NCBI RefSeq assembly: GCF_000284295.1
Contig: NC_017093.1
Coordinates: forward strand, 8,122,001 to 8,186,000
Length of the DNA stretch: 64,000 nucleotides
Source of the DNA: Actinoplanes missouriensis 431
GTDB lineage: Bacteria; Actinomycetota; Actinomycetes; Mycobacteriales; Micromonosporaceae
Direction: 5' to 3'
Below the pieces are notes generated by a model that did not search any database, was not told the origin of the DNA, and saw only the letters and a program-made list of their open reading frames with translations. Positions 47,019 through 50,015 of the stretch are shown one piece after another (the stretch's first letter is position 1; each line of letters begins with the position of its first letter). The translations under genes and the position numbers were made by a program.

Positions 47019-47166
47019 ATTAACATTCTTTCCTATTAATTTGAAGTCCCGGGCGCGCTCCCACAGCTGGTCCACAGGCAGGACAAAAGGGCCGGATCAT
47101 GGCAACCGGCGCGGACGACGCCGCCCGTTCGAGTCGGCAATCCGACACCATCCGCCTACTTTCAGT

Positions 47167-47172
47167 TACGAT
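47167..47172 (+). promoter_or_regulatory. Possible -10 box for the thioredoxin gene
   Basis: TACGAT within TTACGATAGGTTG; a weak -35 CCGACA lies 19 nt upstream. This would give a leader of about 115 nt. Confidence 0.35.
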
Positions 47173-47295
47173 AGGTTGCCCAGATCAACTCCGGCGGAGT
47201 GCCGCACGACACGTGTACCGGCGCCTCAGGCGGGAATGAGAGTTGGGTACCAGAGGTTTCACCGGACGAAAGCGATTCCCGCAGACGGAGGCATC

Positions 47296-47715
47296 ATGGC
47301 GACGGTTGCGCTCACCGCAGCGAACTTCGACGAGGTCACCGGCAAGGACGGCATCGTCCTGGTCGACTTCTGGGCCAGCTGGTGCGGGCCCTGCGTCCGC
47401 TTCGCACCGACCTACGAGCGGTCCTCGGAGAAGCACCCCGAGATCACCTTCGGCAAGGTGGACACCGAAGCCGAGCAGGCCCTGGCCGCGAAGTTCGACA
47501 TCCGCTCCATCCCGACGATCATGGCCGTCCGCGACGGCGTCGTGGTTTTCGCCCAGCCGGGCGCACTCCCCGAGTCGGCGCTGGAGAGCCTGATCGAGAA
47601 GGTCGAGCAGCTCGACATGGACGAGGTGCGGGAGCAGATCGCCGCACACCGCAAGGGCGCCCACGGCGAGTCGGCCACGGCCGAGCCCGAGGCGACGGCC
47701 GCCGGCCGCAGCTGA
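47296..47715 (+). CDS. Thioredoxin
   Basis: 139 residues, ATG 47296 with GGAGGCATC directly upstream. Redox site WCGPC with Cys30 and Cys33, preceded by VLVDFWAS; cis-Pro loop SIPTIM. The C-terminal extension of about 25 residues beyond a minimal thioredoxin is Ala/Glu-rich. Cytosolic disulfide reductant. Own terminator follows. Confidence 0.95.
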   Translation: MATVALTAANFDEVTGKDGIVLVDFWASWCGPCVRFAPTYERSSEKHPEITFGKVDTEAEQALAAKFDIRSIPTIMAVRDGVVVFAQPGALPESALESLIEKVEQLDMDEVREQIAAHRKGAHGESATAEPEATAAGRS

Positions 47716-47730
47716 CCCGGCAGGACATTC

Positions 47731-47764
47731 AAGGCCCGCGGACCGGTTCCGGTCCGCGGGCCTT
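47731..47764 (+). terminator. Terminator of the thioredoxin gene
   Basis: Perfect 14-bp stem AAGGCCCGCGGACC / GGTCCGCGGGCCTT, followed by CCTGTCTCC; 16 bases after the stop. Confidence 0.85.
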
Positions 47765-47867: not shown

Positions 47868-50015
47868 ATGCGATGGTCCCATCTGTCGGCTCCCCCCGAC
47901 GACGAGTCGCTGCTCAGCAGGGCAGTGCCGGCGGCTCCACCCCTGCCGCTGGCGCTGCCCGGCGCCACCGTCCGCACCTTCGACACTCCCGGATTCGCCG
48001 GGATGACGTTCTACGAGGTGCGGGCGAAATCGCTGATCAACCGGGTGCCCGGCCAGTCCCGGGTGCCGTTCGAGTGGACCGTCAATCCCTACCGCGGCTG
48101 TTCCCACGCCTGCACCTATTGCCTGGCCGGCGACACCCCGATCCTGCTCGCTGACGGCTCCACCCGGCCCCTCGCGGAGATCCGCCCGGGCGACGCGGTG
48201 ATGGGCACGATGGGCGCCGGGCCGCACCGGCGCTACGTGCCGACCACGGTCCTCGACCACTGGGCCACCAGCAAGCCGGCGTTCCGGGTCACCCTCTCCG
48301 ACGGGACCCGCCTGGTGTCCAGCGGCGACCACCGGTTCCTCACCGACCGCGGCTGGCGGCACGTCAGCCCCACCGAGGCGCACCTGCCCGCTCTGGCGGT
48401 CGGCGACCTGATGTTCGGGGTGGGCCGGTTCGCCGAGCCGCCCAAGGAGTCCCCCGACTACCGGACGGGTTTCCTCTGCGGCCTGGTCCGCGGTGACGCC
48501 TCCGGCGGCGGCACGGCCCGCGAGGGCGACGCCTGGGTCCGCGCCGACGGTTACCTCGACGACATCCCGCTCACCGAGGCGCTGCGCTGGCCCGAGATGC
48601 CGACCGGCGAGTGGTTCAGGGGCTTTCTGGCCGGCGCCTTCAGCGCGGTCGGGCACACCGAGCGGCTGGCCGTCGTCTTCACCAGCGACGACCCGGTCTA
48701 CCTGGGCCGCGTCGCCGAGGCCCTCTCCCACCTGGGTCTCGCCACCCGCCGGCCGGTCCACGCCGGCCGCGGCCGCTCCGGCGCCGGCGGGTCCGGCACC
48801 TCCACGTCGGGCCGCACATCGTCCGGCATCTCCACGTCGGGCCGCGCATCGTCCGGCGTGTCCAACGCCTGCCGGGGCTCGGCGGGGCTCGCCGGGGGCG
48901 GGCCGGACCGGGTGGAGACCGAGCGGCATCTCGAGGCGGCGCTGCGGTTCCGGCACATGACCGGCGCCTCCTCCGCGCCGCTGGACGCGTCCGGGGTCGG
49001 CGTGCGTGCCAATCGGCGCCTCACCGTCGTCGACATCGAGGACCTCGGCCTCACCCTGCCGCTCTTCGACATCTCCACCGGCACGGGCGACTTCATCGCC
49101 GACGGGGTGGTCAGCCACAACTGCTTCGCCCGCAACACCCACACCTATCTCGACCTCGACTCCGGTCACGACTTCGACACCCGCATCGTGGTCAAGGTGA
49201 ACGCCGGCGACCTGATCCGCCGCGAGCTGGCCGACCGGCGCTGGTCCGGGGCTCCGATCGCCATGGGTACGAATGTGGACGTCTACCAGCGCGCCGAGGG
49301 CCGTTACCGCCTGATGCCGGAGATCCTGGCCGCCCTGCGCGACCACGCCAACCCGTTCTCGATCCTCACCAAGGGCACGCTGATCCTGCGCGATCTCGAC
49401 CTGCTCCGCCAGGCCGCCGAGGTCACCCGTGTCGCCCTCTCCTACTCGGTCGGCTTCGTCGACGAGCGGGTCTGGCGCTCCGCCGAGCCCGGCACCCCCA
49501 GCCCGAGCCGCCGTCTCGACGCGATCCGCCGCCTCACCGACGCCGGCTTCTCCATCGGCGTGCTGATGGCGCCGATCCTGCCCGGCCTCACCGACACCGA
49601 GGAGTCCATCGACGAGACGGTCGCCGCCATCGCCGCCTCCGGAGCCACCAGCGTCGCGCCCCTGCCGCTGCACCTGCGCCCCGGCGCCCGCGAGTGGTAT
49701 GCGTCCTGGATCGCCCGCGAGCACCCGCACCTGCTCCCGCGGTACCGGGAGCTGTTCGGCAAGGGTTCCTACTCGCGACGCGCCTACCAGGACGAGGTGA
49801 CCGCCCGGGTCCGGATGGCCGCCCGCCGGCACGGGCTGCACCGGCCCGACACGGTCCAGGCCCGCCGCCTCACCGAGCCGTCACAGCACGACTCCGCCCA
49901 GACCCGCCCTCTCACCGAGCCGTCACAGCCCGACTCCGCCCAGGCCCGCCCCCGCCGCGGCCCCGAGCCGTCGCCGGGCGGCGGTTCCCGGGCGGACCAG
50001 TTGACGCTGCTGTAA
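47868..50015 (+). CDS. Rv2578c-type radical SAM protein, interrupted by an in-frame intein
   Basis: 715-residue precursor from ATG 47868. Residues 1-84 and 419-715 form a radical SAM protein related to SPL-type/Rv2578c proteins: NPYRGCSHACTY carries Cys78 and Cys82, and the third cluster cysteine is Cys419, the first residue after the intein (CFARNTHTYLDLD). Only splicing (residues 85-418 removed) gives the CX3CX2C motif that binds the [4Fe-4S] cluster. The spliced product would have 381 residues. Downstream motifs include IAMGTNVDVYQRAEGRYRLM, FSILTKGTLI and GVLMAPILPGLTDT. The last 60 residues are low-complexity with repeated LTEPSQxDSAQ. The enzyme's substrate is unknown. Confidence 0.93.
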   Translation: MRWSHLSAPPDDESLLSRAVPAAPPLPLALPGATVRTFDTPGFAGMTFYEVRAKSLINRVPGQSRVPFEWTVNPYRGCSHACTYCLAGDTPILLADGSTRPLAEIRPGDAVMGTMGAGPHRRYVPTTVLDHWATSKPAFRVTLSDGTRLVSSGDHRFLTDRGWRHVSPTEAHLPALAVGDLMFGVGRFAEPPKESPDYRTGFLCGLVRGDASGGGTAREGDAWVRADGYLDDIPLTEALRWPEMPTGEWFRGFLAGAFSAVGHTERLAVVFTSDDPVYLGRVAEALSHLGLATRRPVHAGRGRSGAGGSGTSTSGRTSSGISTSGRASSGVSNACRGSAGLAGGGPDRVETERHLEAALRFRHMTGASSAPLDASGVGVRANRRLTVVDIEDLGLTLPLFDISTGTGDFIADGVVSHNCFARNTHTYLDLDSGHDFDTRIVVKVNAGDLIRRELADRRWSGAPIAMGTNVDVYQRAEGRYRLMPEILAALRDHANPFSILTKGTLILRDLDLLRQAAEVTRVALSYSVGFVDERVWRSAEPGTPSPSRRLDAIRRLTDAGFSIGVLMAPILPGLTDTEESIDETVAAIAASGATSVAPLPLHLRPGAREWYASWIAREHPHLLPRYRELFGKGSYSRRAYQDEVTARVRMAARRHGLHRPDTVQARRLTEPSQHDSAQTRPLTEPSQPDSAQARPRRGPEPSPGGGSRADQLTLL
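48120..49121 (+). mobile_element. Intein with degenerate LAGLIDADG endonuclease domain
   Basis: 334 residues (precursor 85-418). Splicing blocks are complete: block A CLAGDTPILLADGS with Cys85, block B SSGDHRF with His155, block F VVDIEDLG and GDFIADG, block G VVSHN ending in His417-Asn418, +1 residue Cys419. The endonuclease region has a first LAGLIDADG-like motif FLCGLVRGDA with Asp210, but the second, FLAGAFSAVG, has Val261 where the catalytic Asp is expected. Residues about 299-344 are a Gly/Ser-rich stretch made of 10-residue repeats. Splicing is likely active, homing probably lost. Confidence 0.9.
48798..48887 (+). repeat. 30-bp tandem repeat inside the intein endonuclease region
   Basis: Three copies of a 10-codon unit, TSTSGRTSSG, ISTSGRASSG and VSNACRGSAG; the first two are nearly identical at DNA level. 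Confidence 0.85.

Follow-up and report, generated by a model that had tools for sequence, protein, structure and literature searches.

How does an intein come to lie across the metal-binding motif of an oxygen-labile enzyme, and is its excision used by the cell as a signal? Both questions are raised by a gene in the stretch of DNA analysed here (the window), 64,000 nucleotides of the Actinoplanes missouriensis 431 genome at positions 8,122,001 to 8,186,000 of contig NC_017093.1. The gene encodes a radical S-adenosylmethionine (SAM) enzyme of the Rv2578c family, whose iron-sulfur (Fe-S) cluster ligands are separated by an intein. Our analysis indicates, with a probability that we put at roughly 0.85, that this is a class 1 intein between cluster ligands 2 and 3, which arrived as a homing element and is now inherited vertically in the Actinoplanes clade. 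What we observe is the anatomy of the insert, alleles of the same gene that are empty, the loss of one endonuclease acid, co-inheritance of intein and host, constraint on the splicing part, and recurrence of the site in other genes. The intein-containing Rv2578c radical SAM family is already known; the evolutionary state in Actinoplanes and Micromonospora and the recurrence of the site are new as far as the literature searched can show, subscription literature lying outside that search.

An intein between the second and third cluster ligands

The open reading frame (ORF) runs NPYRGC78SHAC82TY84, continues with 334 intein codons from Cys85 to Asn418, and resumes with C419FARNTH. The original prediction had placed the intein between Cys82 and Cys419, the latter being both the +1 residue and the third cluster ligand, and the sequence agrees to the base. 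It had also assigned the third-ligand position to Cys85, and indeed Cys85, which is intein Cys1, follows Cys78-x3-Cys82-x2 at exactly that point; after splicing, the CxxxCxxC motif consists of Cys78, Cys82 and Cys419. The residue set of a class 1 intein is complete (Cys1, block B His, block F Asp, the His-Asn end and Cys +1), with C1, H71, D317, H333 and N334 as invariant columns in an alignment of 69 inteins, and the insert has the Hint fold. That the insertion is in frame is seen directly from intein-free genes, since CxxxCxYC[FY]AR runs uninterrupted in 17 empty alleles among 20 full genes retrieved.

The profile of the intein-containing Rv2578c family radical SAM protein (NF038136) covers the whole frame with 871.6 bits against a cut-off of 700, so that the earlier suspicion that inteins of this family might already be catalogued proves right. 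NF038136 describes the same whole precursor, with no difference in kind, and its model carries no visible statement on endonuclease state, redox or distribution. On the precursor NF038135 scores 515.9 bits (cut-off 430) and the radical SAM domain PF04055 46.2 bits (cut-off 29.5). The nearest database protein, from Actinoplanes missouriensis and named intein-containing Rv2578c family radical SAM protein, is 97% identical over the intein. The genome from which the window comes (8,773,466 bases, one contig) has one full copy of the gene, the second match being a weak one of 21.9 bits.

Following the general chemistry of class 1 inteins, the window intein presumably splices itself out in a few steps. 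Cys85 would attack the Tyr84-Cys85 bond and take over the carbonyl of Tyr84; Cys419 would then take over the thioester and with it the chain; Asn418 would cyclise and Cys82-Thr-Tyr-Cys419 would be sealed; and the freed Cys419 would become the third ligand, the set Cys78, Cys82 and Cys419 being complete only then. It is reasonable to suppose that the unspliced enzyme would lack a proper cluster.

Endonuclease state and inheritance of the intein

A search of genome_contigs with the whole precursor favours occupied alleles; among the best 80 of its 188 relatives the site reads CxxxCxYC in all 80, and the far junction lies in the same frame in 79, L075 being frameshifted. A fairer sample consists of 300 genomes of the family, each judged against the cut-off of the intein-containing model, which 160 pass. 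Within the genus of the window, a match at E 2.6e-254 or better is present in 66 of 67 genomes, and among the 67 there is neither an empty allele nor a mosaic of presence and absence. The remaining genome (G248) holds a decayed copy, L154. It has lost the second cluster Cys, the last Asn of the intein and the +1 Cys, decay having affected enzyme and intein together. A second group of 106 genomes, g4, we take as Micromonospora because one of its exteins and that of M. marina are identical (L083 and L063). Here 38 genomes match at E-257 or better, 58 match at E-132 to E-142, as expected of an intein-free gene, and 10 show little or nothing; the intein in this presumed genus is a mosaic (38 of 106). 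Retrieval of 30 genomes gave the 20 full genes mentioned above, three of them with a mini-intein. All eight g4 genomes retrieved from the range E-132 to E-142 are empty, and the nine low-scoring g4 genomes retrieved yield no match above the cut-off. Across Actinomycetota, a sample of 396 includes 40 with a related intein (E 1e-12 or better).

We scored the LAGLIDADG acids by motif in 115 Rv2578c-family inteins, and viewed the result on a tree of 132 exteins (a quick tree, in which 41 of 127 inner branches are open and a number of branches are long). Both acids are present in 36 inteins; in 74 one or both are missing or the motif is broken; and five (L144, L148, L149, L305 and L306) are mini-inteins of 148-154 amino acids at the same site, without an endonuclease domain, which account for three changes at three places in the tree. 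The Actinoplanes clade, 49 rows, forms a single starred group, all 49 of the broken-motif kind, and the motif 2 acid is present in 0 of 49, so that the two acids of an active homing intein are not found there. Judging from these sequences, endonuclease activity has probably been lost in the clade. Presence and absence of the intein amount to 16 changes on the extein tree, with the 17 empty alleles scattered and several of them adjoining occupied alleles that have both acids. A cysteine in motif 1 (intein position 120) is conserved in 49 of the 49 Actinoplanes-clade inteins.

For vertical descent we use only the comparison of synonymous divergence (dS). The correlation of intein and extein distances was dropped as proof, since it is high in all groups, Micromonospora included. 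In the Actinoplanes clade the median dS of the intein is 0.41-0.55 versus 0.43-0.49 for the exteins, while in nine Micromonospora with both acids it is 0.77-0.96 versus 0.33-0.45, about twice, as expected of a travelling insert. The ratio of nonsynonymous to synonymous divergence (dN/dS) in the Actinoplanes clade is 0.19-0.20 in the splicing blocks, 0.21-0.22 in the enzyme and 0.376 in the endonuclease part; constraint on the splicing blocks equals that on the enzyme, and the endonuclease part is under less. Might the insert nevertheless be a splicing-dead remnant in a pseudogene? Such a fate does occur, as the G248 copy demonstrates by its decay in both enzyme motif and splice junction, but the window has every splicing residue and all the ligands, and its splicing blocks are under purifying selection, which makes this fate exceedingly improbable here.

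Homing may also be read from the codons around the site. We define a footprint as the excess of A/T-ending codons in the 14 codons around the site over what codons for the same amino acids predict in the rest of the gene. It is +2.03 in both-acid rows (above 1.5 in 22 of 36), +2.10 in empty alleles (8 of 17) and 1.45 in mini-inteins (3 of 5), versus a mean of -0.40 in broken-motif rows; at seven other gene positions the means are -0.93 to +0.28. Full and broken rows differ with p 1.5e-6, or 1.4e-4 without the Actinoplanes clade, values that are not strict probabilities as the rows are related. We read the footprint, which is absent with broken motifs, as a trace of homing (co-conversion) or as escape from the endonuclease through synonymous change. 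In four empty g4 alleles (L131, L133, L135 and L136) the first codons past the empty site show synonymous recoding (GCGAGAAAT..., with the rare AGA), unlike those of L132, L134 and L142, which are as usual; the recoded alleles could be either homing-resistant targets or scars of past homing.

These results suggest a simple history. A homing element would have inserted between the second and third ligands of a Rv2578c-family radical SAM enzyme; one catalytic acid of its endonuclease would have been lost in the ancestor of the Actinoplanes clade, with vertical inheritance from then on; and the intein would have stayed because the enzyme is whole only once the insert splices out. Homing looks finished in the Actinoplanes lineage, the intein being fixed and apparently non-homing there and mobile-looking in Micromonospora.

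Several observations weigh against this history, or against the intein assignment on which it builds. Of the 49 Actinoplanes-clade inteins 48 retain the motif 1 acid, which is unexpected of a wholly dead domain, and the endonuclease part, at the dN/dS given above, is still constrained. The intein-extein distance correlation reaches high values in Micromonospora as well (r 0.78 and 0.90), and 8 of the 74 broken-motif rows have a footprint above 1.5. On the intein alone Pfam Intein_splicing gives 18.9 bits (cut-off 35.8) and TIGR01445 24.0 bits (cut-off 24.5), and block B has Ser, not the usual Thr, three residues ahead of His71. Finally, an AlphaFold model of the whole precursor, based on 38 close sequences, was discarded at a mean pLDDT (predicted local distance difference test) of 45.5 and does not tell how Cys82 and Cys85 are placed in the unspliced protein. 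Some of these points would suit an intein that is still mobile in the window genome, with its folded endonuclease remnant, its surviving motif 1 acid, some constraint on that part, and relatives that have both acids and a mosaic presence. However, with the motif 2 acid lacking throughout the clade, no empty allele in the genus, and an intein dS equal to that of the exteins, we consider continued mobility very improbable.

Possible sensitivity of splicing to oxidation and metals

Stress-sensitive splicing is known from the mycobacterial DnaB and SufB inteins. A closer parallel is MoaA of P. abyssi, which we take to be a radical SAM enzyme with its -3 cysteine as second cluster cysteine, and whose redox trap was reportedly described by Callahan et al. 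in 2011. According to two reviews (PMC10663303 and PMC3922620), a disulfide between Cys-3 and Cys1 of the P. abyssi MoaA intein blocks the first splicing step until it is reduced. The precursor in the window has the same geometry in its sequence, Cys82-Thr-Tyr-Cys85, with one cysteine at -3 of the N-extein and the other as Cys1, and the intein is likewise inserted in an oxygen-labile enzyme; the window case differs in being bacterial, in having a different host enzyme, and in being known from sequence alone. Because the site sets Cys82 beside Cys85, a disulfide is probably possible under oxidation, and by analogy with MoaA we lean slightly towards the view that it forms and pauses splicing in vitro.

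Does the cell make use of this? In a physiological redox switch the Cys82-Cys85 disulfide would hold the oxygen-sensitive enzyme as an inert precursor, released on reduction, and the intein would be kept for that reason. The MoaA geometry favours such a switch, as do the persistence of the intein in 66 of 67 genus genomes despite the lost motif 2 acid, the mini-inteins (five rows, three tree changes), and a thioredoxin-like gene (WCGPC) at 47041-47715, just upstream of the radical SAM gene. However, the site imposes the Cys-3/Cys1 pair, given that intein-free alleles have Cys-3 as a cluster ligand as well, so the pair is no evidence of a regulatory role, and since the enzyme needs both Cys-3 and Cys+1 as ligands their conservation is silent on regulation. 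Long retention after acid loss, mini-inteins included, fits a useful switch, and equally fits a trap from which clean deletion or replacement is rare. The thioredoxin neighbour was rejected as a partner of the intein: in loci with at least 900 bases upstream its motif occurs in 59 of 111 that are occupied and in 5 of 17 that are empty, and is not intein-specific. We regard a physiological switch as unlikely. Splicing most likely runs constitutively in the reducing cytoplasm, and any redox sensitivity would be a side effect of where the intein sits.

Alternatively, the CxxxCxxC of the precursor (Cys78, Cys82 and Cys85) might bind a metal or a cluster and so block Cys1, in which case splicing would report iron, zinc or copper. 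The three cysteines do stand in motif spacing, and in the mycobacterial class 3 DnaB intein zinc is described as binding the splicing cysteine, which according to PMC6195587 and PMC7360933 is the sensitive group, just as it would be in the window. Yet Cys1 must occupy the Hint active site, and the sequence has no metal-specific feature beyond any class 1 intein at this site. Sensing of this kind strikes us as quite improbable, and the Cys-3/Cys1 disulfide is, on present analogies, a better precedent than a misbound cluster or metal. The class 3 DnaBi1 intein of mycobacteria also has its disulfide inside the intein, whereas in the window the partner would be an extein cluster ligand. Among the closest solved inteins, namely 3nzm (redox-trapped DnaE, in which Cys-3 is engineered according to PMC3922620), Npu DnaB 4o1r and Mtu RecA 2imz, the window intein stands apart by its inserted endonuclease remnant.

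Recurrence of the insertion site

The pattern of a CxxxCxxC motif with an intein start, which presupposes the site, is found in 42 stretches of viral_contigs. Inspection by eye identifies 15 of these as radical SAM-like genes whose intein lies precisely at the site and one (L123) as a terminase-like gene. Ten of the ORFs so identified were checked against Pfam: seven (L090, L097, L104, L105, L116, L125 and L129) exceed the PF04055 cut-off; L113, which has no PF04055 match, shares 44-45% identity in its C-extein with the C-exteins of L198 (the L107 gene) and L202 (the L105 gene); the ORF of L094 is truncated; and the last is the terminase-like L123. Shifted control patterns give 13 matches (Cys -2/-6) and 25 (Cys -4/-8) versus 42 for -3/-7, with about two of the 13 (L161, L164) and three of the 25 (L180, L184 and L189, one sequence) resembling intein starts, although this control is weak in that its matches were judged by eye and not by Pfam.

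Two further searches do not depend on the site. (In what follows a slash marks the insertion point.) With the intein alignment (A2), 80 of 95 viral loci (L198-L277) were taken, of which 55 carry related inteins in one terminase-like protein with the end HN/TRW. The other 25 reduce to 23 distinct loci: 12 at CxxxCxx/C, two (DUF5131) at Cx6Cxx/C, and nine elsewhere, in hosts that include a glycosyl transferase, epimerase, helicase, polymerase, methylase-like and portal protein and two unclear ones. DUF5131, like DUF1848, is presumably a radical SAM-like family. The intein of the phage homologue L104 was compared with 5.8 billion proteins; among the best 120 of 2834 matches 118 lie at CxxxCxx/C and two lack the N-terminal part, while 113 of the 117 longer C-exteins fall in one similarity cluster. 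Much of the site sharing among these matches is common descent.

Independent evidence for recurrence comes from a comparison of hosts. The C-exteins of 15 viral hosts and two Rv2578c hosts, compared by blastp, form seven groups without mutual match at 1e-4: L097/L198/L200/L201/L202 with the Rv2578c pair, L116/L125/L205, L203/L208, and L090, L129, L209 and L213 singly. The inteins of five of the seven groups match the window's intein or that of its relatives. Those of L090, L129 and L097 do not match the window's intein, and L097 is a related host with a different intein, of 131 amino acids, at the same point. Within the data searched, the site thus very probably recurs at the third cluster cysteine of radical SAM-type hosts. 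Two odd loci were noted on viral contigs: a protein of 1149 amino acids (L214:1622-5068) with two Hint-like regions, at about 225 and 809, perhaps two inteins, and a second radical SAM-intein gene on the L120 contig (1496-4765, minus strand), in frame behind an unrelated repeat-like protein, which may be an artefact.

More generally, one could propose that the third cluster cysteine is a standing landing site for inteins, that each arrival gains a Cys-3/Cys1 oxidation brake, and that lineages without homing (Actinoplanes and the mini-intein lineages) keep the insert since the brake is useful. We find this doubtful as a whole, and it is the useful brake that carries the doubt. At stake is whether MoaA, the one well-described natural intein redox trap, stands alone or exemplifies a rule. 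Should radical SAM enzymes have been invaded repeatedly at one and the same ligand, they would supply a set of natural Cys-3/Cys1 precursors on which to ask about adaptation versus accident. Actinoplanes and Micromonospora would make a clean comparison, with the same intein and site, homing seemingly over in one and apparently ongoing in the other, and intein-free alleles as controls.

Coordinates and minor features

Table 1. Features of the precursor gene, in positions of the window.
Feature	Position	Strand	Basis
Precursor gene, Rv2578c-family radical SAM protein with intein, 715 aa (amino acids)	47868..50015	+	ORF/frame, NF038136, NF038135, PF04055
N-extein, 84 aa, C-terminal end Cys82-Thr-Tyr	47868..48119	+	sequence
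Codons of Cys78 and Cys82, ligands 1-2 of CxxxCxxC; Cys82 is residue -3 of the splice site	48099..48113	+	sequence
Intein, 334 aa, class 1 residues Cys1...His71...Asp317...His333-Asn334	48120..49121	+	sequence, NF038136, alignment, Hint fold
Cys85, intein Cys1, in third-ligand position of the precursor motif	48120..48122	+	sequence
Block B histidine (intein His71)	48330..48332	+	sequence and intein alignment
LAGLIDADG motif 1 remnant GFLCGLVRGD, acid present	48468..48497	+	sequence; acid in 48/49 of Actinoplanes clade
LAGLIDADG motif 2 remnant GFLAGAFSAVG, acid absent	48621..48653	+	sequence; acid in 0/49 of Actinoplanes clade
30-bp repeat, 2.2 copies, low-complexity linker of endonuclease remnant	48791..48857	+	repeat scan
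Block F aspartate to block G His-Asn (intein Asp317 to Asn334)	49068..49121	+	sequence and alignment
Cys419, +1 splice residue and, after splicing, third cluster ligand	49122..49124	+	sequence
C-extein, 297 aa, remainder of radical SAM domain	49122..50012	+	sequence, profile scores
42-bp tandem repeat in C-extein tail	49856-49953	+	repeat scan

A scan of the region for promoters and terminators found nothing. In the structure prediction of the intein, pLDDT falls below 50 at residues 226-256. Between the thioredoxin-like and radical SAM genes, at about 47735-47764, lies a long GC-rich inverted repeat that the terminator scan did not list.
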